The notes beneath the pieces are model-generated. The model saw only the letters and a program-made list of their open reading frames with translations, did not search any database and had not been told where the DNA came from. From NCBI GenBank assembly GCA_029204225.1, contig CM055113.1, forward strand, positions 29,734,805-29,798,804: a DNA stretch of 64,000 bases, given 5' to 3'. The stretch's first letter is position 1, and every line of letters begins with the position of its first letter. Shown here piece after piece: positions 4,471-62,639 of this stretch. This DNA comes from Diphasiastrum complanatum. Lineage: Eukaryota > Streptophyta > Lycopodiopsida > Lycopodiales > Lycopodiaceae. Made by a program: the position numbers and the translations under genes.

Positions 4471-5178
4471 CGGCGGGTGCAAGCGGTGGTTCAAGCAGGG
4501 TTTCAACCAACAGGTCCTCCTCCCCTGAAAAAAAATGCAAGAGAGGTAGAGGGCGGTGGGGCGGTGGGTTTTTAGAATCGTGCGTGGTTGGGTGTGGATC
4601 AAATGATGTTTGCAGATGCAATGCGTGTTGGTAGAAAATCAATGAATGCAAAAACACGTCAGGCAAACAAAAACTCTGAGAATCGAAAAATAAACTAATT
4701 GAAACGAATTCTTAATCAAGATGGAAAAAGATTATCAGGAGCGGCGATGCCAATGTTTGTTAATCTTGTCCCTACGGTCTCTAATGTAGCAGATTCACAA
4801 CCGACAGGGTCTGCTCCTCTTCTCACTCTACCGGTTGTAGTGCAATGATGGTGCAATGGTGATGTACCCCACTTGTCAGTTGGCACATCAATGACCTAAT
4901 CTGGATCCTACTCATATTGGATGTTCAACTTCAATCTGGATCTATCAAAATTTGAATTCCTACATTCTACAGTCTATTTCAGTTCTTTCTTTAATGCTTA
5001 CAAATTGTAGATTATTATTGATCTAATCTAAGCAGTACAGGGAATGAGATTGAAACTTGATCCTATTGAAATCAACAAAATCAATAACACAGCAGCTACA
5101 CAGAAACAATGTGAATCCTACAAAGTGCTTTTGCTACGACTGTCACTCAACACTTGTAACAAAAACTCCTCAAGGAGT

Positions 5179-5325
5179 TGTAGTGGGTTTCTTTCCTTGC
5201 CTAACTTGAATCCAAGATCTAGTCAATCTAGCATCAAAGAGATGGAGTTAGTTTTCACGCGGAGGTTCGTTCCCATGAGAGCGATAGTATAATTCAGATT
5301 TCAACATGAATGGAGGATCTAACAA
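5179..5325 (-). repeat. gypsy LTR-end fragment (family of the 23-34 kb element)
   Basis: This stretch is nearly identical to the first ~145 bases of the LTRs at 22974 and 33649: TGTAGTGGGTTTCTTTCC, then CAATCTAGCATCAAAGAGA, then GTTCGTTCCCATGAGAGCGA. It starts exactly at the LTR terminus, and similarity stops after GGATCTAACAATAACAT. It is a truncated LTR or the end of a diverged relative. Bases 5326-6774 hold no recognisable gene; part must be the 3' flank of the IQD gene. Confidence 0.82.
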
Positions 5326-6774
5326 TAACATCCTCACTTTTGATACTTCAATCTCAATCACGAAGAGCTATACTAAACTGAATTTATGTACACTATATTT
5401 TGCCATGGGCTAACAAGATCGAAGGGAAGGAAAAGTTTGAGAATGGAATAAAGAACGAGAGAGCTTGGAGCTATGGTTGGAAAAGGGGTAGCAAGAAAAA
5501 AGTGTCCCTAGAGAAGATCCAAAAAGTACTAGATTAAGTGACTTTCAATAACCAAGGTAGAATGCCCACATTGATTGACAGTAGGCTCAAGACTGATATC
5601 GTAGCCAAGTTTGCCTTTCGATCCTCCATTACCATTGTGAAAGTCTCATGTTATGTAAGCTAAGCCTCCCAGTGACTAGTGTATCAACAGCCTCTTTCAT
5701 TCAAGATACCTTGTTCTCCAGCATAGTTTCAGTTTTGCTTACTGGACATGCCTTGCGTATTGAATGCTCAATTCTAGCTTTTTTATGTGATAAAATCAAC
5801 AGTGTTTTTAATGTTGAAATCTTTACGTAAGCAGATCACAATGTATGGGATCAGGGTTGTTTTACAAACAAAGGTTTTCTCTACAAGTTTTATTCTGAGA
5901 TCAACATCCATTAAGTCCTATCCAAAAATTTTACCTTCAAAATAAATCGTAATAATTTGTAACTACACATTTATGGCCCATAAAATAATGTCATTGATGC
6001 CAGAAAATTTTGCCGGTTCATTAGAACAGCTTATTGTATAGAATGCAGAAATTTATCAACACGTATCTTACATTTATTAGTCAAGAAAAAAACATTTGAT
6101 CAACTTTTTATGTAAGGAATGGTCTTTCTAGTACTGAGTCGTGGTAAGGACAGGAATCTGTTCGTGTCACTTGAAAGGTGACAGTCCTCACCATCAACAA
6201 AGATATTGAGAACACCGTTCCAGTATATACATTGATTGATGGTTCTCATCATTTTCTAGTTGATGGCCACTAAGCCACTAACCTTCTATTTTGGATTTTT
6301 GGCTTTTCCTTCTCTGGCTGAATGGAAGGGTATAATTCATCATTCAAGTTTTACAAGCATGCTCTAGATCTCTTATTCTATCATATCTTGGCAGTTTCTC
6401 TAATTGCACAACTCGATTTGGAACCTGCTGCCATTATGAAGGATTTCACTTTAAGCACTCAATATACAACATATGCAACACCTTGCAATCCTTGTTTTCA
6501 GCATATCCTTTTCACAAATGTAAAAAGAGTGATATCTTCTATGTGCAAGCACAAAGAATCAAGATGAAGAACTTCAACTGTCACCCTTTTTCTTACTCAA
6601 TTATATGATACTTGGATGAAAATAAGTTAGGCAGAATAAAAGGATTGCTTTTCCACTTTTCTGTGCTCCTGGAAAAAGGCAGGGTGCATACATACCACAC
6701 CAATCTGGCCAAGAATTACAGTCTGGAGACTACCTTCAAATTTTGTATGTTAAGTAGCAGAAATTACTTGTCAG

Positions 6775-9700
6775 CTAAAACCTAAACGGTCTTCGGTAAT
6801 CTGCACTCACTGACCAAGCTGAATGTGCTTCATTGAGAGAGTTGGAGGACCTGTCCAAGGCCACAGAGGCGGCATATGTATTGTTCCGTGTTCGAAGTTG
6901 TGAGACGGATCTCCTAGATTGTGAAGCCCCTGAGCAGGATATGTTATCTGCCCAAGGCAATGAATATCTTTTCTTTGGTACTACAGGTGAGTGCTTTTCG
7001 AACACGACAGGCCTTTGCCTGGGAGCACTTTGAGAGCGCACCTTGGCTTTTGTAGATTTGGTTGGTGTCATATAGTTAGGGAACTGTGCATATCCACGCA
7101 GAAAATTTTCTTTCTGATCAATATCACCAACCGCAACCATCCGCTTCGTAGGTAATTGTGGACCGGATGAGTTAAATGCAGGGCTGCTGTTAGTGGAAGA
7201 CAAAGTACATTCTTCCTGCTTCAAACTAAGTTGCTCCTTCAATGAATAAAGCCCACTCTCTTGCACTCCCATTGGCAGCCCAGACCTGCTAGATCTCCCA
7301 CTCATTGAAGGTGTACTTGGGTGGGATGTTAATGCTGGTGCTGAAACGGGTTGCTTTCCTGACAATCCAGATCTTGGCGATGGGTCTGCCTGTCTGAAAG
7401 ATTCTGCTGGCGGGCTAGGCCATGTATATATTCCTGTTGAGGTACTGCTTGATGTGTTGGGTGCGATTGAGAAGGATTCTGGTGTATATCCCAACTTGGT
7501 CTTGTTTCGCAGGCCTTGTTTGTTATGATCAACCTCAAGAACTTTTGTGCTCCCCTCGGAGCTTTTTTCCACAGCACCACTTCCATACCCCCCTTTTAAG
7601 TTGTCAGCAGAAGGGCTTTCCCAGGGGCGGGCCGCCATCCACCGCTCCAACCAACTCCACTCCCAATGAGGACTGTCGGACTCCATGGCAGAAGAATCTT
7701 CTCTCACAATTTTCTGAGATTCACGCAATTGTTTGCATAAATTTAATCTAAACATGTGAGATAACAAACAGGAAAAATGCCTTGCACGTAGTCAGCAAAT
7801 TTACCTGTTGTGACATGGCATAAGCCAAAGCTCTGTCACGTTTCTTTGCTGCTTCTTGTCTTTTTTCAACCTTAGCCTGCAGATCTTCAACCGTGCCAGA
7901 GCTTGCATTCCAACCATCCTGACAATCACGGTGGAAGAAAAGTCTTAAGGAGCTCGTCCAATGATCAATCCCAGATTAAGCCTCAGATTTGCGACTAGGG
8001 CAAGCATTGATAAGTCTCACCTCTCCCAAGTTTTTCTAGAGAAGTCTATAGTCTATTACTACTTGCTTTTGAAAAGGGCAATCAAAGACAGAATATGTGC
8101 ACACTGCATTTGCAACTTGGATCCAGCGAATGATGGTAACAAGCAAGACCTTTATATACCTCAACAAAACAGCAACCTTCACCATAATAAACCAAATTCC
8201 AATATCAGTTCAGAAAAAAGTAAGATTCACCATAGACTTCCTTGGGCGAGCTTGTTGACGTCTGCGCCTTTGAGACAGTTGCCGCTGCACAGCCTGGCCT
8301 TCCTCTGACATCCTAACGCGACGTGCACGAACACGGGCTTGCACTCTTATAAGTGCTTGCATGCATCTGAGAGTCATGGCAGCCTGTTTTCTAACTCGAT
8401 GTCCACGGAACAAAGCTTGCAGTCGGACCAAACCTTTGAGTGCTCGTAGCGCCCTTCTAGCCTGAGAAAGCAAGATTTGCCAGGATTTTCAGAAATACCT
8501 TCACTAGTCAGTCTAATAAGAGACGTTTCTAGGAATTTCTACGTTTGATTTATCCTATGCATGACAAAATAAATATTGGGATAATCCATGTGACTCTACT
8601 TCATGTGGTTAAGCATGCCTACGTGAGCCAGTTACCAAAGGCAGAAGCATTTTCAGAAATATAATTTTTTAACTTAACATACACAATTTACCAATGCTCT
8701 TACGCATGTGGTAGAACAAACCAACGAAATAATCTGCAAAGAATTGGAAATGTCAAACTTTACAGATTATACCCACCATGCAGCAAACATTGTCATTACG
8801 AATTTCAACAATCGGTGTTTATGATCTCATACATAGTTTCCGCGAATCGCAGTTCGAACCTCCAATTGCTGTTCGAAACGAATGAATCATTTGGAGCCCG
8901 TTTGAACCGGGAAAAAGAAAAAAATACCCAATTCACTGTTGCTTACCAGTTACCATCATCTTTAGCTTTGTTTAATTGTAAACTTCTTACTTTCAAAGGA
9001 AAAAAGACAGAAAACAATCAGTTAACATTGTCAGGTGAAAGATTAAAATTGAAAACCAGGACAGACCTGGAGTTTAAGTTTCCAATACATTCTTTTTGAG
9101 ATTCTATTGAAATGCAAGGGTTTGGCATTTTAGGTCTGTGATCCTTAGCATACAAAGTTTCAGAAGTCTGAGGATCCAAGGCGACAAGAGACCTGTTTGC
9201 AAAGTGAAAGTCAACAAGCTTCAAGGTAAAGCAACATCATCCTCCAAAAGTATTCACTTTAACAAAAAGGACTGATTTGCCAAGTAAGATTCACAATGAA
9301 GCCAGATTTAGATTTTCTTCTATTCAATACTGAAATTATAATAGTTTATTTCACTTTGTTTTAAGGTTCTTCTGAGCCTTGACACAACTGAATGATTTAA
9401 GATTCTGCAAGAACTTTAAACTAAACAAAAGACCGTGAATTTTCAGATGACCAGCATGGTGAGAGCTTCTTTGCTTCTTTAGGGACAGATGAAAGAAATC
9501 ACTAGTTGGTCATGATCAAATAAGAATTTGATTGAGAAAGTTTATGAGCTAGTTCAGTACTTTAGTATGAACTCACTGGAAGAAGTTTGATAGATGGTTT
9601 TAGCACTTCACAGGACAAGACACACTTCAGCATTATACGCTTCCTTTCATGTCCATCAGAACCATCAGCAAGACATTATCAAATCAGGAGTCAGATTAAC

Positions 9701-27400: not shown

Positions 27401-28545
27401 TTGCTGAACTGGCGGAGCAGGCTGCCAAAACTTGCGTAATCGGCTGTCATTTACTGGAGTATCAAATCGTTTTCCATCCAAGTGTTCAAGAATTACTGCA
27501 CCATAGTTCAGGATTTCCTTCACTTTATACGGCCTTCACCAGTAAACTTCAACTTACCCTTGATCAGCTTGGTTTTGTACATCAATGCAAGATCTCCTAC
27601 TTCCAGATCTTTCTTGTGCAATCGACGAACGTGCCATGTCTTGCGGCGGGCTTTCTCTGCTGCTAAGGCATGAACTGCCATCAATCAGGTTTCACATAAT
27701 TTGTGCAATGCTTTATGATGGAGTTGTAAAAACATATCATCATTTAATCGTTCCGTTGTTGTTGTGCGTAAAGATGGAATTAAAAATTCAATTGGCATAA
27801 CAGCATCTTGACCATAAATCAGTTGAAAAGGTGTTTGATTTGTACTATTTTTGTAAGGGGTTCTGAATGCCCATAATGCTGCATACAGTTTATGTTCCCA
27901 ATCCGACCGACTCGCTTCAACTGTCTTTGTCATAATGGTGCAGAGAATCTTATTGGAAGATTTAGCTTGGCCATTCCCTCTAGGATAATAGGGAGTACTA
28001 AATCTGTGTATAACAAAAATATCTTCCAGTAAACACTTTATTGTTTGATTAACAAAGTGTGTACCCCAATCACTGACAATTTCGATCGGACATCCAAATC
28101 TGATAATAATATTTTCATATAGAAACTTGGCCATAGATTTCGCATCAGCCACTTTGGCAGCTTTGGCTTCAACCCACTTGGTCATATAATCAGTTGCGAC
28201 GATAATGTATCGGGCCTAAGATCCTTGCGCAGCAGGATGAATAGGACCAACATAATCCAGTCCCCATTTTTCAAACGGTGCTTGCGATAAAACCGGATGT
28301 AAGGGTTCATAATTTTGTCGAGTAGGCTGTCGTGCTCGCTGGCAGACATCACATGTCTGAATAAAATTTTTTGTGTCCTTATGAAGCGTAGGCCACCAAC
28401 AACCGGATTGCAAAAGTTTGCGAACAGTAATATCTGTAGAGAAGTGTCCTCCACCCATGCCATTATGTGAAAACATGATTAAATCTGGTACTTCGTGCGG
28501 TAAAACACATCTTCGTAAAATATTATCTGCTCCACGATGATACAA
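27400..28545 (-). pseudogene. gypsy integrase of the inner element
   Basis: The zinc-binding half (MGGGHFSTDITVRKLLQSGC, then CDVCQRA) is followed by the catalytic core: first Asp in KWGLDYVGPIHP, second in IVSDWGTHFVNQT, third position in PRGNGQAKSSNKI. The third catalytic residue is K where the outer copy has E (GQAESSNK), so the DDE triad is broken. A stop separates the zinc half (ends 28216) from the core, and TGA follows HKALHKLCET at about 27685. Remnants of the C-terminal SH3-like part (KDLEVGDLALMYKTKLIKGK) lie at 27530-27640. Confidence 0.88.
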
Positions 28546-28596
28546 TTATCCTGCAATTAATTGATAAGGTTGAGCCTTATGGATCAATTGTCTTTT

Positions 28597-29408
28597 CTAT
28601 ACTTTTGTCAAAGAGTCATTCGGTTGTCCTAGCATCAAGTACTCAACAATATCTGCCGCCCACTCAAGTACTGCTTCAACATAGAACAACGCAACATCTG
28701 GCAGTTCATCATCCACTTCAGTATTAACTGGTGCGAATTCCATTCGCGAAACGTGATCGACTAGATAATGTTGCTTCCCCTTTCTGACCACAATTCGAAA
28801 GTCAAATTCAGTCAATAATAATAACCATCTTGCAATACGTCCAGTATTACACATCTTATTTACCAAGTAAAGTAACGGTTGATGATCCGTATAAAATGCA
28901 AAGTGCATTTCCATGAGGTAGTGATGAAATTTTCGAACAGAAAAAATCATGGCTAGCGCTTCACGTTCTGTTGTTGAATAATTCTTCTCTGGATCTGTAA
29001 GCTGTCTGCTTGTGAATCGTATAGGATAATCCTTCTTATATCACCTGGCTTCGTCAAAACTGATCCAATGGCGTATTTTGAGGCATCAGTATGAACATGA
29101 AACTCTAATGTCCAATCTGGAGAATGCAGTATTGGTGCCTCTACTGTCCAAATAGGAACAATAGTTAATTTGTATATAGGTCGTGCTAAATCCGCAAAGA
29201 AGATAATAAAAATTCGATAGTAGTTCACATGACCCATAAACACATAAACTCCTCGAATTGTTGCTGGCGGTGGCAATTCCACAATAACTTTGATCATAGA
29301 ATAATCGGTGAGAATACCATGTCGTGATATCACATGTCCAAGCACAACTCCGTGCGAAACCCATATCTGGCATTTTCTGGATTCAGAGAAATCTAATATT
29401 TGCGGCAT
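28597..29408 (-). pseudogene. gypsy RT thumb and RNase H of the inner element
   Basis: Segments read CQIWVSHGVVLGHVISRHGI, ELPPPATIRGVYVFMGHVNY (thumb/connection) and HVHTDASKYAIGSVLTKPG (RNase H first strand), then FSVRKFHHYLMEMHFAFYTD and RIARWLLLLTEFDFRIVVRK. The expected link between the DASKYAIG strand and the KFHHYL part is garbled by frameshifts near 28950-29040. Confidence 0.85.
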
Positions 29409-30178
29409 CTTTCAAAGACTTTCTTCAATCGATCCAGGTGGTCTATATCTGTACTATGAACTCCCAAGTCGTCCAAGTAAATTTCAAGAAATTTTTGTAG
29501 ATAATCTTTAAAGGCAAATTGCATTACTCTTTGGAATGAACTTGGTGCATTACAGAGTCCAAACGACACTACTTTGTAAGCATAGGTGTCCCATTTTGTT
29601 GCAAAAGCAGTTTTGTGACGATCGGCAGGTGCAATCTTAATCTGGTTATAACCACTAAATCCATCCAGGAAACTATAAGCTTCTGCTCCAGCAAGGCGAT
29701 CCAAAATGCTTTCAGTAAAAGGTAACAAAAAGTGATCCTTCCGTGTCACTTTATTCAATGCTTTGAGATTCACACAAATTCGCAATTTCCCATTTTTCTT
29801 AGGAACAATGACAATCGGTGAAATCCATTCGGTATGCTCAATCTCATAAATGAAATCGGCGTCAAGCAGTCTCTTAAGTTCTTTCTTTATCAGATCTACC
29901 ACATTAGGATTACAGCGATAGAACTTTGTAACCTTTGGTACTGCATCAGGTACTAAAGGTATGGTATGTTCAATGACTGATGTCAGAATACCCTTCAAAT
30001 CTTGATAAGTCCATGCAAAACAATCTTGATACTTAATAAGTAACAAACAGAGTGCTTGATACTGTTCAGGAGTAAGTTGTGATCCCACTAGTACAATCTT
30101 TTCCGGTTCTCCTAGTTCTACAAGATTCATTGGTTGCGTCCTAACTGGGCCATCGTAAATCTCTTTAGAATCTGGCAT
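29393..30178 (-). pseudogene. gypsy reverse transcriptase of the inner element
   Basis: A 260-residue open frame covers the RT fingers and palm: HTEWISPIVIVPKKNGKLRI, CVNLKALNKVT, AYSFLDGFSGYNQIKIAP, TYAYKVVSFGLCNAPSSFQR, and the catalytic YLDD in IYLDDLGVHS. All three palm aspartates are present (LDG and YLDD). The piece itself is intact; it is disconnected from its neighbours by stops. Confidence 0.9.
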
Positions 30179-30999
30179 GCTTTAGGTAAGATGATAACCA
30201 CATCATCCAGTTTATAACGTTTAAAATGCTCTGGCATATCACGTTGGACTACATTTGCTTGTTCTTTTTCGAAAGGACTTGTCTTGGATCTTCGTTTAGT
30301 CTTTTTAGCAGGAATTGATCGTGGAGATGATGACTTTCGGGATGATAAATTTTTCTTCACAGGTGAAGACTTTCTAGACGATAATGTCTTGCTGGAAATC
30401 TGACTTGAAGAATCATTCTTGACTTTTCCTTTGCCTTTATCCAATAAATGTGGCAGTTTCTTTGAATCAATCTTTTGAGGGGGATTTTCCCATTTCAGGA
30501 CCGTATTATAATGTTGCTTTGCTTGTTTCTTCGTCATTGAACATGTGATCCTGTCTCCCTTCAATATAACTGCTTTGGGCGATTTGATTGTTGGTTCATC
30601 AGGAACATTACGCACTCCAAATCTGGTCGGATCCATATGATGTAGAGTCTGTTCATCCATAAGTTCTGCATTGCCATCATAAGTTAAGGCATGGCTCATT
30701 GGTATGAGATCGTCCTCAATTGGATCTGGTATAGGTTCCGTTGATATCCAGACTACATTCAACACATTTAGTGTAAACGTGATTGGCATATCCAAAGTTC
30801 GATCTAATAAGGAAATCTTGCTCATCTCTAGTTGAATATTTTGTTGACACATATATCTTGTTGTACAATCAATTGTTGCAAGAGCTTCGTTCCAATTGAT
30901 AGTATCCGTTTGAGAATCGTAGTGAATTCCCAATTTTTTCTCTGGTCGATCACAAGTGTGATCCGTTGTTGATGAATCGTCATCCGCTTTTTGAACCAC
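30127..30999 (-). pseudogene. gypsy protease-RT linker of the inner element
   Basis: A 290-residue frame follows the protease. It contains HMDPTRFGVRNVPDEPTIKS (the sequence into which the inner element inserted in its relative) and a Ser/Lys-rich low-complexity stretch (repeats of SSRKSSPVKK). It overlaps the RT frame by about 50 bases in another frame, showing a frameshift. No enzymatic motif. Confidence 0.75.
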
Positions 31000-34405: not shown

Positions 34406-34410
34406 ATCAT

Positions 34411-34972
34411 ATGGATCCGACCAAATTTGGAGTGCGTAATGTTCCTGATGAACCGACGATAAAACCACCTAAAACAGTTATATTGAAAGAAGACAGGATC
34501 ACATGATCAATGATGAAGAAACAAGCTAAGCAACATCATAATACGGTCTTGAAATGGGAAAATCTTCCTCGAAAGATTGATTCAAAGAAGGTGCCACCCT
34601 TATTGGATAAAGGCAAAGGAAAAGTCAACTCTGATTCTACAAGTCAGAAATCTAGTAAGACATCATCGTCTAGGAAGTCTTCACCTTTGAAGAAGAGTTT
34701 ATCTTCTCAGAAGTCATCACCTCCATGATCGATTCCTGCTAAGAAGGCTAAGCGAAGATCCAAGACAAGTCCTTTCGAAAAAGAACAAGTAGACGTAGTC
34801 CATCATAATATGCCCGAATATTTTAAACGTTATACACTGGATGATGTGGTTATCATGTTACCTAAAGCGCATCGTGAATCTAAAGAACACATGCCAGAAT
34901 TGAAAGAGGTTTACGATGGCCCAACTAGGATGCAGCTAATGAATCTTGCTGAACCAGGAGAACTGAAAAAGA
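34411..34972 (+). pseudogene. gypsy linker of the outer element, right half
   Basis: Resumes the interrupted coding sequence: MDPTRFGVRNVPDEPTIK, then KKQAKQHHNTVLKWENLPRK, a Ser/Lys-rich block and MPEYFKRYTLDDVVIMLPKA. Stops occur at about 34504 (TGA) and 34726-34728 (TGA), so it is dead. Confidence 0.85.
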
Positions 34973-35764
34973 TTGTACAAGTTGGATCACAACTTAATCC
35001 TGAACAGTATCAAGAATTCCACATGTTACCATACCATACCTTTAGTACCTGATGCAGTTCCAGAGGTTACAAAGTTCTATCGCTGTAATCCTAATGTTGC
35101 GGATCTGATAAAGAAAGAACTTGAAAGACAGTTTGATGTCGATTTCATTTATGAGATCGAGCATACTGAATGGATTTCACCGATTGTCATTGTTCCTAAG
35201 AAGAATGGAAAATTGAGAATATGTGTGAATCTCAAAGCATTGAGCAAAGTGACGTGGAAGGATCACTTTCCGTTATCTTTCACTAAAAGCATTTTGGATT
35301 GCCTTGATGGAGCAGAAGCTTATACCTTCTTGGATGGATTTAGTGGTTACAACCAGGTTAAAATTGCACCTACAGATCGCCACAAAACTGCTTTTGCAAC
35401 AGAATGGGGCACCTATGCTTACAAAGTTATGTTGTTTGGACTTTGTAATGCACCAAGTTCATTCCAAAGAGTAATGCAATTTGCTTTTAAAATTTATCTG
35501 CAGAATTTTTTTGAAATTTACTTGGATGACCTGGGAGTCCATAGTACAGATACAGACCACCTGAATCGATTGGAGAAAGTATTTGAAAGATGCCGCAAAT
35601 ATCAGATTTCTCTAAATCCAGAAAAATGTCAGATATGGGTTTCCCACGGAGTTGTGCTTGGACATGTGATATCGAGACATGGTATTGCCACAGATGTGGA
35701 ATTGCCACCGCCAACAACAATTCGTGGAGTTTATGTGTTTATGGGTCATGCAAACTACTATTGA
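34973..35764 (+). pseudogene. gypsy reverse transcriptase of the outer element
   Basis: Fingers, palm and thumb: HTEWISPIVIVPKKNGKLRI, CVNLKALSKVTWKDH, AYTFLDGFSGYNQVKIAP, LFGLCNAPSSFQRVMQ, IYLDDLGVHSTD and EKCQIWVSHGVVLGHV. Compared with the inner copy, about 28 codons are deleted after PEQYQEF, and another short deletion follows SRHGIATD. YLDD is intact. Confidence 0.88.
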
Positions 35765-35769
35765 ATTTT

Positions 35770-36996
35770 TATTATCTTCTGTAGATTTAGCACGACCTAT
35801 ATACTAAAAAAAGCATTAACTTCAGTACCAATACTGCGTTTTCCAGATTGGACGATAGAATTTCATGTTCATACGGATGCCTCAAAATACGCCATTGGAT
35901 CAATTTTGACGCAGCTTACTGATCCAGAGAAGAATTATTCAACAACAAAACGTGAGGCGTTAGCCATGATTTTATCTATTCGAAAATTTCGTCACTACCT
36001 CATGGAAACGCACTTTGCATTTTATACGGATCACCAGCCTTACTTTACTTGGTAAACAAGACGTGCAATACTGGACGTATTGCAAGATGGTTATTGTTAT
36101 TGACTGAATTTGACTTTCGCATTGTGATTCGAAAGGGGAAGCAAAATTATCTAGCCAATCACGTTTCATGAATGGAATTCGCACCAGTTAATACTGAAGT
36201 GGATGATGAACTGCCAGATGCTGCATTGTTCTATGTTGAAGCAGTACCGGAATGGGCAGCGGATATTGTTGAGTACCTGATGCTAGGACAACCGAATAAC
36301 TCCTTGACAAAAGTACAGAAGAGACAACTGATTCATAAGGCTCAACCTTATCAATTAATTATAGGACAATTGTATCATCGTGGATCAAACAATATTTTAC
36401 GAAGATGTGTTTTACTGCATGAAGTACCAGATTTCATCATGTTTTCACATGATGGCATGGGTGGAGGACACTTCTCTACAGATATTACTGTTCGCAAACT
36501 TTTGCAATCAGGTTGTTGGTGGCCTACGCTTCATAAGGATACAATTTTTTTTCTTCACACATGTGATGTCTGCCAGTGAGCATGATGGCCTACTCGACAA
36601 AATTATGAACCCTTGCGTCCGGTTTTATCACAAGCACCATTTGAAAAATGGGGACTGGATTATATTGGTCCTATTCATCCTGTCGCGCAAGGATCTCAGG
36701 CCCGATACATTATTGTAGCAACTGATTATATGACCAAGTGGGTTGAAGCCAAAGCTATCAAAGTTGCTAATGCGAAATCTACGGCCAAGTTTCTATATGA
36801 AAATATTATAATCCGATTTGGATGTCCGATCGAGACTGTCAGTGACGGGGGACACACTTTGTTAATCAAACAATAAAGTGTTTACTGGAAGATTTTTTTG
36901 TTATACACAGATTTAGTACTCCCTATTATCCTAGAGGGAATGGCCAAGCTGAATCTTCCAATAAGATTTTCTGCACCATTATGACAAAGACAGTTG
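35770..36996 (+). pseudogene. gypsy RNase H and truncated integrase of the outer element
   Basis: RNase H remnants (FHVHTDASKYAIGSILTQL, KFRHYLMETHFAFYTDHQP) precede integrase: DGMGGGHFSTDITVRKLL, CDVCQ, KWGLDYIGPIHPVAQGSQAR, and YPRGNGQAESSNKI with the third acidic residue E retained. A frame shift after VSDGG and several stops occur. Similarity to the inner copy ends at about 36996 (MTKTVD), where unrelated sequence begins. Confidence 0.87.
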
Positions 36997-37025
36997 ATCG
37001 ATAAGTTTGGTAAACTTACGATCAT

Positions 37026-37412
37026 GCCTTTGCTTGGCACTAGGATGTAGTAACAAGGTCACTCTCACATGATGTTCGCTGGAACATAACAGCCCTAGAA
37101 GCCCTCCATATTGCCTATGAGGACTTTCAAGTCAAATTCTTTGAGGACTCCACGCTTTGCACAGTGCACGCTAAGAGAGTTACCCTCATGCCTCAGGACA
37201 TGCATCTTGTCATGAGGCTAATGAGTACATACGATCAGGTCTTTAAGAGTGGCTTCACCTCTAGGCCACCACCTACAGAGAGAGGTCCTGTTTCTCAACG
37301 AAGAAGGAGGAAGCAGACCAAGCCCACCAGGCCTGCCAAGCAAAGCGTGGTACTCAGCGAATCAGCATCTCCCCCTCACATCTCTCGTCCTTTGGTTGGA
37401 CCATCACACTAG
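37026..37412 (+). pseudogene. histone H3-fold-like segment (CENH3-like features), 5' truncated
   Basis: Codons 37026-37220 align without gaps to histone H3 residues 66-130 as I remember them, about 25 of 65 identical by my count. The match is strongest in alpha-2, loop 2 and alpha-3: DVRW, then YEDFQVKFFEDSTLCTVH and HAKRVTLMPQDMHL. W after DVR, the ED before the aromatic residue and TLM recall plant centromeric H3, while MPQD recalls canonical H3. TAG at 37041-37043 falls where H3 has Val71. Upstream there is no recognisable N-tail or alpha-N, because the truncated gypsy element ends about 30 bases before. After the fold comes a basic stretch (SQRRRRKQTKPTRPAKQ), a Ser/Pro-rich stretch and TAG at 37410-37412, in frame with the next entry. 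It may be the N-terminal part of the same gene. Confidence 0.68.
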
Positions 37413-38649
37413 TCTACAATGCCTTCTTATCCTCCCACCACCCCTAAATATTCAAGTAGTTCATCTTCCATTCCCTCCATTCCATCCCACAATAACGAGG
37501 ATATGAACTCGACTACAGATAAAATAATATCGGATCTAGATTTAAGTTTAATAGGTGATTTTTATAAGGATCTTTGTGTAAGATTTCCTGTTGATCCCAA
37601 AGATTCATTTTTGGATTATGAGAGGTACATAATTTTTTATGAGTATGTTGGCAAAGAAATTGATAAGCTAGGAGGTCAATTTTCTTTTTGTCTAAGCTCA
37701 AATAATTATGTAAATCACATAAATAAAGACTTTTGTGATGCCCTGAAGGAGAAGACCTCAGATATATCATATTCAGTTGTGGAGGCTGGTTTGATGTATT
37801 TTGTAAATAGATGTAAATCCGATGATAGTAAGGACATTGGAGTTGTGTTGTCCTTTTTTGCACACACCCTTCATAGTCCAACTAAGGCGATGAAATATCT
37901 TCTCCATACAACCTTGGAGACCAAAGTCTTTATTATTCCATACTGCCAAACATAGAATATATTCTAGTAATATTTTTAATAGGTATGGTAATTCCTTTAG
38001 TTTAACTAATTATCTCTTGTTTGCAATAAGCATTGGAGTATGCATATAATCTCCCTTAGGGAAGATTCAAATGGGATCATTAATCCCATCTGTTTAAAGA
38101 TGAACTCCTTAAAGTCTACCCATGCCGAAATGGACGTGATGTATAGCAGAATGTTGCCATTTTTGCCAAGGCCGGACGGGGCCACTGTAAATAGCCACCT
38201 GGAGATTGTTGATGCAGAAGAAGTATTTCTCATCAAGTATCTGATAGGTAATATGATCTGTTTTTTTCAGAGTGCACAACTAACCTATTATACGTTTTGT
38301 GATTGAAGTCAGCTCAGCAAAATGATGGACATAATTGTGGATGGTTCTCCATCCGCAATGTACAGGACTTCTTAGAGTGGTACATCATGCAATCTGGGGC
38401 TCCAGATATACGAAAGGTAAATAGACTAGTGAATGGCCTAACTAAGTTAATTTCGATTTGATTTTTGATAAGTCAATTGACTTGGTTCTTTTGGATTTGC
38501 AGTATAAATGTCGAGCATTTTCAATGAATGAGATATATGAGCTTCGTCAACAGATGTTGGTGAACTTATTATCATGCAACACCCATTTTAGCTGCGGAAA
38601 CGAGAGGCCAATCAAGTCCACAACTGACACTAGTGCAGGGTGGAGATAA
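37413..38649 (+). CDS. Ulp1/C48-like cysteine protease domain gene, four exons (5' end uncertain)
   Basis: Inferred exons: up to 37925, 38031-38247, 38313-38416, 38503-38649 (TAA); introns 105, 65 and 86 bases, GT-AG, with phases that join correctly. The first donor (AAA/GTCTTT) is weak. The protein has a Ser/Pro-rich linker, a helical region (SVVEAGLMYFVNRC), a strand KYLLHTTLETK joined to HWSMHIISL with the catalytic-type His (38031-38033), CLKMNSLKSTH where C48 proteases usually have LDS (Asp is Asn at 38103-38105), and QQNDGHNCGWF across the second intron, with Gln six residues before the nucleophile-type Cys (38336-38338). The last exon supplies a helix (MNEIYELRQQMLVNLL). C48 enzymes cleave SUMO or related tags; related domains are also found in some plant transposons. 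With Asn for Asp, activity is uncertain. The first ATG in frame is 37419, but the frame is open back to the TAG at 37410. Confidence 0.75.
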
Positions 38650-38829
38650 TCCATATTACTTTGAGTTGTAGATAATAGATTAAATAGATATATACATTTT
38701 TGATGTAATGCCCTGTGAATAATTATGGGCATATAGAAAGATAGAGACAATGAGAAAAAGCATCCATTGTTAAATACAGGACACACATGTACATTCTCAA
38801 AAAATGAGAAATATATTGATATTTATGAG

Positions 38830-39040
38830 AGCTTTTACAAATCTTGTATCGTGATTGCTCTCAACATATCTTCCATGAGTCTGATTAGTCCTTTCGGTAT
38901 GGCCATCTGATTCAAGATGATCAGGAGAACTAAAACCAAAAAAAGTTTCTAGTTTATGGAATAGAGGTGTTGTCCATCTGCAAGACCAGAGGCTCACTCC
39001 TTGTTTCGTCCAATTCGTCCTTTTATACTTATGTACAGTT
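38830..39040 (-). pseudogene. chromovirus integrase-core fragment, inverted
   Basis: On the minus strand: TPLFHKLETFFGFSSPDHLE, then SDGHTERTNQTHGRYVES, the end of the gypsy integrase catalytic core (usual form: FSSAYHPQTDGQTERTN). The E of the DDE triad (TER) is present. It faces the opposite way to the integrase C-terminal piece that follows, so part of one element has been flipped. Confidence 0.8.
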
Positions 39041-39054
39041 TTCAACCTAGATAT

Positions 39055-39213
39055 CTTGTTAATGTGGAGATAAAATCTATTAAGATCCAGAAGGTTGCTA
39101 ATTTCCTACATGATATGCAAGAAATATTGCAAGTGGGTAAGGATAGTATCTGGAGTGCTCAAGATAGAGCTAAAAACTATGCCAATCTTAAGAGATTTGA
39201 CAAAATTTCCAGA
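39055..39213 (+). pseudogene. chromovirus integrase C-terminal linker fragment
   Basis: Reads VEIKSIKIQKVANFLHDMQE, ILQVGKDSIWSAQDRAKNYA and NLKRFDK, the helical linker of gypsy integrases (usual form: KAQDRQKSYADKRRRD). It is interrupted after RFDK by a 782-base insertion and continues at 40001. Confidence 0.75.
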
Positions 39214-50025: not shown

Positions 50026-51024
50026 CTAGGCACGGCATGTTGAAGCGCCCAGCAGCAATGGACTTGCAGACTTAAGGTTGAAGAGCATTTCTGCAGCTTC
50101 AATTTGAATAGGATACTGTCTTCGTCGCAGGGACTCCAAATCCTTTTGAGCTTTCTGTAACAAATTGACTTGGGTTTGCTTTGCAGAATCTAATCTGAGC
50201 CTTTCAGCTTTGAGTGTATCAATGGTTCTCTTTAGCTCTACGATCTCCCTTTCTGCAATATGAACAGATGCTGAAGTCTCTGAGTGCTTTCTATGAAGAG
50301 ATTCCAGCTGCGATTTGGCCTCTGCGAGCTGCAGAGATGAATTGGTTTCAGCGCTAACGGATGCTTTTTGGATGGCACGCGTGCTTTCAATTTCAGCTGA
50401 AAGTGAAGTAATTAGAGCTTCCTTCTGTTGAAGCTCAGAGGTAAGCTTGCTCAGCTCAGCTTTGTATTCGTGAATTTGCTCGAAGGTCTCAACTTCCACA
50501 TCTGCAAGCTGTGTGCAGAGCCTCTCTTCTGCATCCTCCAGGATGCTCTGCCTGCGCATCAGTTGCTCCAGATTCTTCTCCAGCACCTTTTGTCTAGCGT
50601 GGCTTGCTTCATCCTTTATCCTTAAATTAAGATTCTCGGATGTCAATGCTGATGTCTTCTCTTGATAGAGAATCGCTTCTGTCTGCGTTTGTTGCAGCTT
50701 TTGGTTCAGAAAAGCAATTGCATCATCTTTAGACTGGAGCGCCCAAATCATGGCTTGTATTTCTAACTTCAAATTCGCTATATGATCGTGATCTCTTTCA
50801 TCTGCTGCGAAGACTACGGATGAGGATTCTTCTTCACGAGCATTAAGGCTGACTATTCCTTCAGATGAATAGAGCTCTTTAGGCAACAAAAGATCATCCA
50901 AGCTATCAGAATACGATTTCAATGAGCCGTTTCCAGGAGAAGAAAGGCGAGGTTTTGCAGAAATTTCTGTAGTCTTCTCTGTGAATGGCATCAGCTGCTC
51001 AATCATAGATCTCCAAAATGTCAT
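50026..51024 (-). CDS. coiled-coil protein of unknown function, single exon
   Basis: Intact 332-residue frame. I chose ATG at 51024 (MTFWRSMIEQLMPFTEKTTE); the open frame extends about 12 codons further but without another ATG. Residues about 25-75 are Ser-rich and probably disordered. From about 80 to 305 heptad-like Leu/Ala/Glu spacing is continuous (LKLEIQAMIWALQSKDDAIA, LEKNLEQLMRRQSILEDAEE, ELKRTIDTLKAERLRLDSAK), a long coiled coil. The C-terminus (SASPLLLGASTCRA) is short and uncharged. No signal peptide, membrane segment or enzyme motif. It has no gag/pol neighbours, so I take it as a host gene. I do not recognise the family; cytoskeletal or scaffold roles are common for such proteins but this is not evidence. 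Confidence 0.72.
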   Translation of the reverse strand: MTFWRSMIEQLMPFTEKTTEISAKPRLSSPGNGSLKSYSDSLDDLLLPKELYSSEGIVSLNAREEESSSVVFAADERDHDHIANLKLEIQAMIWALQSKDDAIAFLNQKLQQTQTEAILYQEKTSALTSENLNLRIKDEASHARQKVLEKNLEQLMRRQSILEDAEERLCTQLADVEVETFEQIHEYKAELSKLTSELQQKEALITSLSAEIESTRAIQKASVSAETNSSLQLAEAKSQLESLHRKHSETSASVHIAEREIVELKRTIDTLKAERLRLDSAKQTQVNLLQKAQKDLESLRRRQYPIQIEAAEMLFNLKSASPLLLGASTCRA

Positions 51025-51188
51025 GACTTCTTGTTCGATGTGAAAAAAATATCCAAACACTCAACCTCAGAAATCGTCCCAAACCTTGTTCAATTTCGGA
51101 ACCCTGCAGATACTACAAAGTCCACTGGAAAGCGCGTTGGATAAACTAAAATCCCAAGTAGCAGGAACTTGACTTCAAGAAACAAAAA

Positions 51189-61743: not shown

Positions 61744-62639
61744 TGTAAGGGAAGCTCCCTAAGATCCTGCTTACAAAATAACACACAATGGAAAACACAC
61801 TATGGAACAACCACCCAACCAAGTTGAAGCAACCAATCAACTCTAGAAGCTTCACTCCCAAGCCAAGGAATAAGAAGCATGAATGTAGAGTGAAACTCTG
61901 GCAATGAATCCATGATCACAATGAGGAGTAGGGTGAGTTTGGCCTCAATATATAGAGCCAAAAGCAACCTGGGCACATAGCCATGCATAGTACTAAGTTC
62001 CCTATACATAGATTCCCCTATAATAGAGTCCTAAGCATGGACCACCTATTCATAGAATTGCTATTGATAACTCTACACATGCATACACTGTCTCGAACCT
62101 TGTCTAAACTCTATTTAGTGTGTTTTGGGCCTCACAAGGATATTAGTTACTTTCATTAGAGGATTTTTGAGCTCCAAAAAGACCCTTTAAGAATTCGTGC
62201 AAGATGTAGTTTATATTATTAAAATATTATAACACTAATACTTTTGACTTGCCATAATTTTTTAATCGTAGCTCAAAAGCATGTCATGTAACATATCATT
62301 GGAATGCCCTTGTTGAGCACTTTTCAATGCACCAAACTTCGCTAAATTCAAACTTACCACTAAAAGCCATTTTTTGTGTGGAATCAAAATGTGGACTCAA
62401 AAAGTTACGTTACGTAGATTTCAAATTTGAGTGTTTTGATTGGTCCATGTGTAAGAAAAAATTGAGAAAAAATATAAAAAGAATCTTTACAAAGGGTCTT
62501 CTTTGGATTTAGAACTCTTCTAATGCGGGTCACATCCAGTATGATGTGGCATAACTAACAGCTTGATGTACTGGAGTACCATGTATCCAAGTCTATGAGT
62601 ATGTTTTTAGAATCCTACTTACTGGCCATGGACATAACA
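61744..62639 (-). repeat. 5' LTR of the 40.5 kb chromovirus family, minus strand
   Basis: Plus-strand ends TGTAAGGGAAGCTCCC and GGACATAACA are the reverse complement of the termini at 40950 and 40461. It is 896 bases against 490, the excess being mostly the MITE-like insertion at 62154-62525. No partner LTR was found leftward in the window. Confidence 0.85.
62154..62525. mobile_element. MITE-like insertion within the LTR
   Basis: Terminal inverted repeats of 35 bases (62154-62188 and 62491-62525), 27 of 35 matching, begin CATTAGA and reach GACCCTTT. The 372-base interior is AT-rich and non-coding. The homologous LTR at 40461 lacks it. No clear target duplication, so the superfamily is undecided. 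Confidence 0.75.

Follow-up and report, generated by a model that had tools for sequence, protein, structure and literature searches.

A transposon gene of Diphasiastrum complanatum that joins a histone H3 fold to a C48/Ulp1-like domain

Introduction

A stretch of 64,000 nucleotides of the Diphasiastrum complanatum genome, referred to here as the window, contains a histone H3-like fold next to a Ulp1-like protease domain. The initial annotation placed both at 37026–38649 in one reading frame and offered two readings: a fusion of the two domains, or an H3 fragment and a Ulp1 gene that came to lie side by side by chance. The question raised by this locus is whether the two domains belong to one gene and, if so, what kind of gene it is. 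We are fairly confident in the identification given here of an H3–C48 gene and of the transposon that carries it, with the mechanism proposed in the last section as the likeliest single reading of its role.

Results and discussion

The gene copy in the window

The frame at 37044–37412 (+) matches the Pfam family Histone (PF00125; profile positions 67–121 of 122) with 53.2 bits and an E value of 4.4e-14, the curated cut-off being 26.4 bits. Against the PDB, the fragment finds histone H3 chains, with a best E value of 5.3e-12. The H3 fold is thus real. Its gapless alignment with H3 had been set at 37026–37220 and residues 66–130; the match stands, and its limits shift to 37044–37220 (+), approximately residues 74–131, the fold being truncated at its 5′ end. 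The sequence 37026–37043 is junction sequence with a stop and lies outside the H3 homology.

The fold is followed by a linker (37221–37409, +) which was delimited by alignment and includes the basic stretch RRRRKQTKPTRPAKQ; comparable stretches occur in families B and C described below. A single in-frame TAG at 37410–37412 (+) is a lesion that is also found in the duplicate locus L049 and is missing from the open copies. The remainder of exon 1 (37413–37952, +) encodes a Ser/Pro linker and the N-terminal half of the C48 domain, and is colinear with the protein of the complete relative L027. The exon 2 equivalent (38029–38217, +, end approximate) contains the His of HWS and lacks an Asp where the catalytic one usually stands, and its splice sites are lost on both sides. 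The exon 3 equivalent (38309–38416, +) encodes QQNDGHNCGW with the Gln and the Cys, and shares 42.9% identity with L027 over 42 amino acids (E 1.6e-6). The exon 4 equivalent (38503–38649, +) encodes the C-terminus in a frame open to a TAA; it resembles exon 4 of L027 by eye and is identical in L049. The 3′ flank of the gene (38650–38861, +) is homologous to the relatives L046–L048, and this homology ends at 38861. All of the motifs listed in the initial annotation (HAKRVTLMPQD, the basic and Ser/Pro linkers, HWS and QQNDGHNC), as well as the one TAG between the halves, were recovered on re-reading the frame.

Searched singly against Pfam, the C48 pieces of the window gave no match, the cut-off of Peptidase_C48 (PF02902) being 20.7 bits. 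The C48 domain of L027 passes with 39.9 bits. When aligned with the protein spliced from L027, the window pieces are colinear (E 9.8e-27 and 1.6e-6). The description of the window domain as spliced has to be withdrawn: in the window and in L049, intron 1 has lost its donor and acceptor and intron 2 its donor, sites that are present in L046–L048.

Upstream of the gene lie the remains of a gypsy element (34406–36997, +) with reverse transcriptase, RNase H, zinc-binding and integrase pieces, a foreign neighbour of the H3–C48 relic. They were recognized by Pfam (RVT_1, 87.7 bits; RT_RNaseH_2, 72.2 bits; Integrase_H2C2, 34.4 bits; rve stayed at 21.1 bits, under its cut-off of 32.6) and by homology, as far as 36997, to a gypsy copy in inverted orientation at 27.9–30.6 kb. 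The two inverted copies in the window, 27917–30641 (−) and 34406–36997 (+), are 85–92% identical. Between the gypsy homology and the L049 homology, which starts at 37044, there is a 46 bp junction filler (36998–37043). An integrase-like reading of 38797–39102 (−), made by eye only, was dropped, as Pfam returned nothing.

The segment 37044–39609 is duplicated approximately 170 kb away at C22:29941336–29943900, the locus L049, with 99.88% identity over 2,566 bp; the far copy ends at 29943900, which is the end of the sequence piece compared. The 5′ part of H3 that is missing here is kept in L049, so the truncation of the window copy lies at about 37044. This copy is a dead, 5′-truncated pseudogene, which has lost its 5′ end at the gypsy junction and its splice sites and carries an in-frame stop. 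L049 is a pseudogene as well, as the stop and the splice-site losses are common to both duplicates. The two may be an assembly duplicate. Several further copies also occur in pairs of equal score, often with one member on a small contig, and these may be recent duplications or assembly haplotigs.

Genome-wide pairing of the two domains

The 1.74 Gb genome was searched with the C48 half of the window and with the H3 half of L046, the best 150 candidates being scored for each query, so that the counts given here are lower bounds. All 150 scored candidates matched in both cases: the best 150 of 3,765 for the C48 half, the window itself included, and the best 150 of 6,896 for the H3 half, L046 itself included. 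Pairing of the two best-150 lists yielded 90 H3/C48 pairs, all on the same strand and with H3 upstream. Across both lists, no H3 and C48 matches within 3 kb of each other lay on different strands or had C48 first, and 60 of the 150 matches on each list have no partner on the other best-150 list. The modal gap is 33 nt (31 pairs), and in 58 of the 90 pairs the gap is divisible by three. Fourteen of the 90 pairs form one uninterrupted frame; some of these are near-identical copies, such as three with frames of 336 aa, which reduces the number of independent cases to about ten by reading. Stops occur in many rows of both match lists, which shows that many copies are broken. The fusion claimed from the window copy is confirmed by these frames and by the fully open loci L017 and L027: with 14 of the 90 pairs in one frame, the window is not the only place where both domains are joined. 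The H3 fold and the C48/Ulp1-like domain form one recurrent fused gene and not a chance pairing. The initial annotation overlooked that the locus is a copy, and a truncated pseudogene, of a multi-copy transposon gene.

Copies of the gene in four families

Twenty H3-like loci, picked for long frames among the genome matches, fall by sequence into family A (13 loci), family B (six) and family C (one). The copy in the window belongs to a further subfamily, D, from which L046, L047 and L048 were chosen for long frames.

The sister family B contains two loci, L027 and L017, with an open gene for a protein of 470 aa in four exons with GT/AG borders; L014, L016, L025 and L026 are broken or incomplete. 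The spliced protein of L027, the copy of the open pair that was searched against Pfam, scores 94.2 bits for Histone and 39.9 bits for C48, both above the cut-offs. L046–L048 share 92.6–93.0% identity with 37044–38861 of the window (L046 from 37050). A single open frame of 448 aa in L046 starts with MARTKQIAH and spans fold, linkers and the N-terminal half of C48; its product spliced through exon 3 scores 74.8 bits for Histone and 24.8 bits for C48. None of the three is perfect: the fold shows small in-frame gaps in L047 and L048, and L046 has a broken last exon.

Family A lacks C48 in the frame of the H3 fold, which ends directly after the fold, and Pfam found no C48 in six other family A ORFs. 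The members (L009–L013, L015, L018–L024) are built from an H3 start motif (in 9 of the 13), about 300 aa of SR-, Gln- and Pro-rich disorder and the H3 fold; in L009, tail and fold lie in one frame of 417 aa. At the locus L028, two distinct H3-like genes of this class of elements lie within 3.5 kb, at 4840–5718 and 8034–8321; they probably represent nested or rearranged elements.

The C48 part

In the C48 domain of L027, H330, Q394 and C400 are in place, and His, Gln and Cys are also found in this order in L017. The HW and PQQ...CG core aligns with yeast Ulp1 (1euv, E 0.0013) and with a Ulp1-like SUMO protease (6dg4, E 0.00076). Compared with these enzymes the element domain is weakly similar, is fused to H3 and lacks the catalytic Asp. 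In the column of this Asp, as defined by the 1euv and 6dg4 fragments, L027 and L017 have Lys and L046 has Asn; the PDB alignments put Ile, Lys or Met there, and the Asp is absent from all C48 copies aligned. A KMNS motif lies near the position in 10 of the 12 copies read, L026 and L028 having no such stretch. Its Asn was considered as a substitute for the Asp, which the alignment does not support, the residue at that place being uncertain. Of the His-Asp-Cys and Gln set that defines Peptidase C48, the Asp is therefore missing; for this reason the domain is not classified here as a proven Ulp1 protease, and a function in the SUMO pathway becomes less certain.

The chances are close to even that the C48 part is a dead enzyme serving as a SUMO- or protein-binding arm, that is, as a decoy or scaffold. 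The replacement of the Asp by Lys in B and by Asn in D, as aligned with Ulp1 and 6dg4, speaks for such an arm; the preservation of His, Gln and Cys in order in L027 and L017 speaks against it. The domain is also constrained (dN/dS 0.29–0.59, see below), and this fits an enzyme and a binder equally well.

The histone part

The H3 folds of the elements share 41–53% identity with host H3 and 39–60% between families. Ten positions (F104, E105, D106, L109, H113, K115, R116, V117, T118 and D123) are the same as in host H3 in all seven aligned element sequences. H113, R116 and D123 belong to the H3:H3′ bundle. These bundle residues and a complete fold are found in 7/7 element sequences; the window copy lacks the 5′ part. 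Departures from H3 are a Pro at position 63 in all seven, K122 to Gln and L100 to Gln in both D sequences, and C110 to Leu in families B and C. Structure prediction from small alignments returned mean pLDDT values of 34 for exon 1 and 39 for the transposase-like ORF described below, and gave no usable model.

The start of H3 is also recognizable. In family A, 9 of the 13 loci match the start motif, six of them with the exact MARTKQTAR. In D, two of four loci are exact (L047 and L048) and two are variants (L046 and L049); the start is in frame with the fold in L047 and in another frame in L048. Family C starts with MARTESTAR, and family B with MDRRKQTRR or MDKRKQTRR. Thus, copies of three of the four families keep the first residues of H3 (ARTKQTAR or a variant), and the residues beyond are unrelated.

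Selection was assessed by pairwise Nei–Gojobori counts among the six B copies, which include eight comparisons between two B lineages. Between the lineages, dN/dS is 0.08–0.19 for the H3 fold, 0.17–0.26 for the tail, 0.29–0.59 for C48 and 0.36–0.59 for the linker. Within the lineages the values scatter, with several pairs near or above 1, as is expected for copies that decay after insertion. Synonymous divergence is uneven along the B gene, which may reflect recombination. The values between the lineages point to strong purifying selection on the H3 fold of family B.

These data bear on the possibility that the H3 piece is a passenger, an anciently transduplicated H3 amplified together with the element and having no function. 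A precedent is known from fungi, where, according to the part of PMC6710886 that was available, an H3 captured by a hAT element was amplified to 784 mostly truncated copies; the many broken copies and the within-lineage ratios near or above 1 in several pairs also agree with a passenger. We consider it improbable, given the low ratios of the fold between the B lineages and the fact that four families with 39–60% H3 identity all keep the fold, with the ten host-like positions in 7/7 sequences.

The host transposon

Family B carries the complete H3–C48 gene inside a 9.3 kb DNA transposon with terminal inverted repeats, together with a transposase-like gene and accessory genes on the opposite strand. 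In L027, the 9.3 kb lie between inverted repeats with ends of the CATTAGAGGA... type, which are 84% identical over 43 bp. The left end was seen in three copies (L027, L017 and L025) and the right end in four (L027, L017, L026 and L014); no left end was seen for L014 in the sequence piece examined. With at most one mismatch, the terminal motif occurs 2,486 + 2,499 = 4,985 times in the genome, compared with 1 + 2 = 3 times for the reversed control. Beside the window relic the motif is absent, as expected for a truncated copy; the single match in the window, at 62508, has two mismatches, with 0.43 such matches expected by chance.

The L027 element is inserted in a repeat that looks, by eye, like the gag gene of a copia element. 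When the flanks were joined into the empty site, 12 of 12 loci matched across the junction without a gap, and therefore no net target duplication is seen at this site. No empty site was found for L017, so that the target-site result describes one insertion (L027).

Upstream of H3–C48, the B element has a plus-strand gene. Its homologue in A, with about 40% identity, lies downstream of the H3 gene of A on the opposite strand. Pieces of the upstream ORF tested against Pfam gave no match above the cut-off, and its role as a transposase is therefore inferred. The gene is called transposase-like because it is conserved in the elements, has acidic motifs (by eye) and matched in 150 of 150 scored candidates, the best 150 of 9,148 in the genome. 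Twelve of these matches lie 1–4 kb upstream of H3-like matches or of the H3 of L027, on the same strand (paired by eye).

Downstream of H3–C48, a gene on the opposite strand is common to B and D (50–58% identity), and part of it shares 33% identity over 103 aa with an ORF of A. This accessory gene, of unassigned family, lies at L050:3–1116 (−) and L027:6913–8192 (−); in L027 it shows a sub-threshold TnsA-like match (18.5 bits, cut-off 26.5). The right end of D is similar to that of B by eye. Subfamily D thus has the same downstream gene as B and a similar terminus.

Membership in CACTA was rejected, as the element ends are CATTAGAGGA and not CACTA. MULE elements, including Vandal and its KIU genes, are marked by a MULE transposase domain and a target duplication of 9–11 bp, and hAT elements by hAT Pfam domains and an 8-bp duplication. 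In the ORF pieces tested, neither MULE nor hAT Pfam domains were found above the cut-off.

From the window, where the H3–C48 gene lies just downstream of the integrase on the same strand, one might propose that it belongs to the neighbouring gypsy element as an additional ORF. This is very improbable: the complete relative L027 sits in an inverted-repeat element and keeps its introns, Pfam finds no retroelement domain among ten ORFs tested, and L049 has the gene's own 5′ end where the window has gypsy. The weakest explanation, that an H3 fragment and a Ulp1 gene came together by chance, agrees with the contact of the window copy with an unrelated gypsy remnant across 36998–37043. For the domain pairing it is scarcely credible against 90 pairs in one order, on one strand and with a modal gap, and against frames in B and D that are open across both halves; it is the gypsy/H3 junction itself that is a chance juxtaposition.

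Proposed role and relation to known systems

We tentatively propose that the protein is an accessory chromatin factor or anti-silencing protein of the transposon, similar in principle to the VANC–Ulp1 protein (KIU) of Vandal elements. By this analogy, the H3 fold would take the place of VANC. The H3 part would form a pair with host H4 or be incorporated into nucleosomes on or close to the element DNA and would display a short mimic of the H3 tail, and the C48 part would strip SUMO from nearby silencing or transposition proteins, or bind SUMO if it is inactive. As a result, silencing would be eased or insertion guided.

A bolder reading, which we regard as rather doubtful, is that a superfamily of DNA transposons encodes its own H3 variant, with a nucleosome-competent fold, an ARTKQTAR mimic and a SUMO-directed domain, and forms element-specific nucleosomes. 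Such nucleosomes would recruit or block readers of the H3 tail and remove SUMO-dependent silencing, so that the transposon would write its own chromatin. Family A, in which no C48 is seen and a long disordered insert separates the tail from the fold, would then represent an alternative version of this scheme.

The features of the H3 part can be compared with those of CENH3/CENP-A, which likewise has a diverged H3 fold. CENH3 is marked by a longer loop 1 and by its location at centromeres. In the alignment of the element H3 folds, one extra residue is found in loop 1, in family B only. The IPRAPF, RW and AAEDY-like residues are, as we take them, reminiscent of plant CENH3. In the PDB, fission yeast cnp1 ranks third and fifth for the H3 fragment of the window; for the full fold of L046, H3.Y and canonical H3 lead, and cnp1 is far lower.

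The nearest precedent for the anti-silencing proposal is found in the Vandal elements, in which, according to the available part of PMC13317346, VANC and Ulp1-carrying proteins act in anti-silencing, KIU consists of VANC and a Ulp1 domain, and silencing of related elements is relieved. The same part describes Vandal elements as non-TIR MULEs of Arabidopsis, reports similar Ulp1 domains in MULEs of grapevine, melon and rice, and gives the role of Ulp1 in KIU as unknown. As far as that part goes, KIU resembles the H3–C48 gene in being an accessory gene of a DNA transposon, one of several element genes, in which a Ulp1 domain is joined to another regulatory part. It differs in that the partner here is an H3 fold and not VANC, that the element here has terminal inverted repeats, and that the transposase-like ORFs here have no Pfam match above the cut-off. 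The text of PMC5735166 has no match to Ulp1, Kaonashi or KIU.

For H3 in transposons, the nearest precedent is fungal: an H3 gene is carried and amplified by hAT elements of Pseudocercospora fijiensis and Pyrenophora tritici-repentis, of about 9.5 kb in P. fijiensis; as stated in the accessible part of PMC6710886, that H3 was captured from a transcript, is mostly RIP-damaged in P. fijiensis and comes with no Ulp1. In contrast, the H3 described here is diverged, fused to C48, constrained and common to four families. A fusion of H3 with Ulp1/C48 was not found in the literature searched, which was covered in part.

Transposons with anti-silencing factors, with Ulp1 domains or with captured genes are already known; what was not expected is that four element families carry a constrained H3 fold as an accessory component. 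The many-copy H3–C48 gene suggests that the elements make their own chromatin-tampering protein. Should this protein be incorporated into nucleosomes, a mobile element would be providing a histone of its own, which would allow a direct test of the contest between element and host over chromatin, a contest that would possibly extend to centromeres. As a caution, an H3-like gene in such a genome can belong to a transposon.

Three further regions of the window contain long open frames, all on the minus strand. At 254–2926 (−) there are copia-like gag-pol frames of 731 and 158 aa, named by eye. A 338-aa frame at 6775–7791 (−) is, we presume, reminiscent of plant IQ-domain (IQD) proteins, and a coiled-coil-like frame of 344 aa at 50026–51060 (−) is possibly an exon of a host gene.
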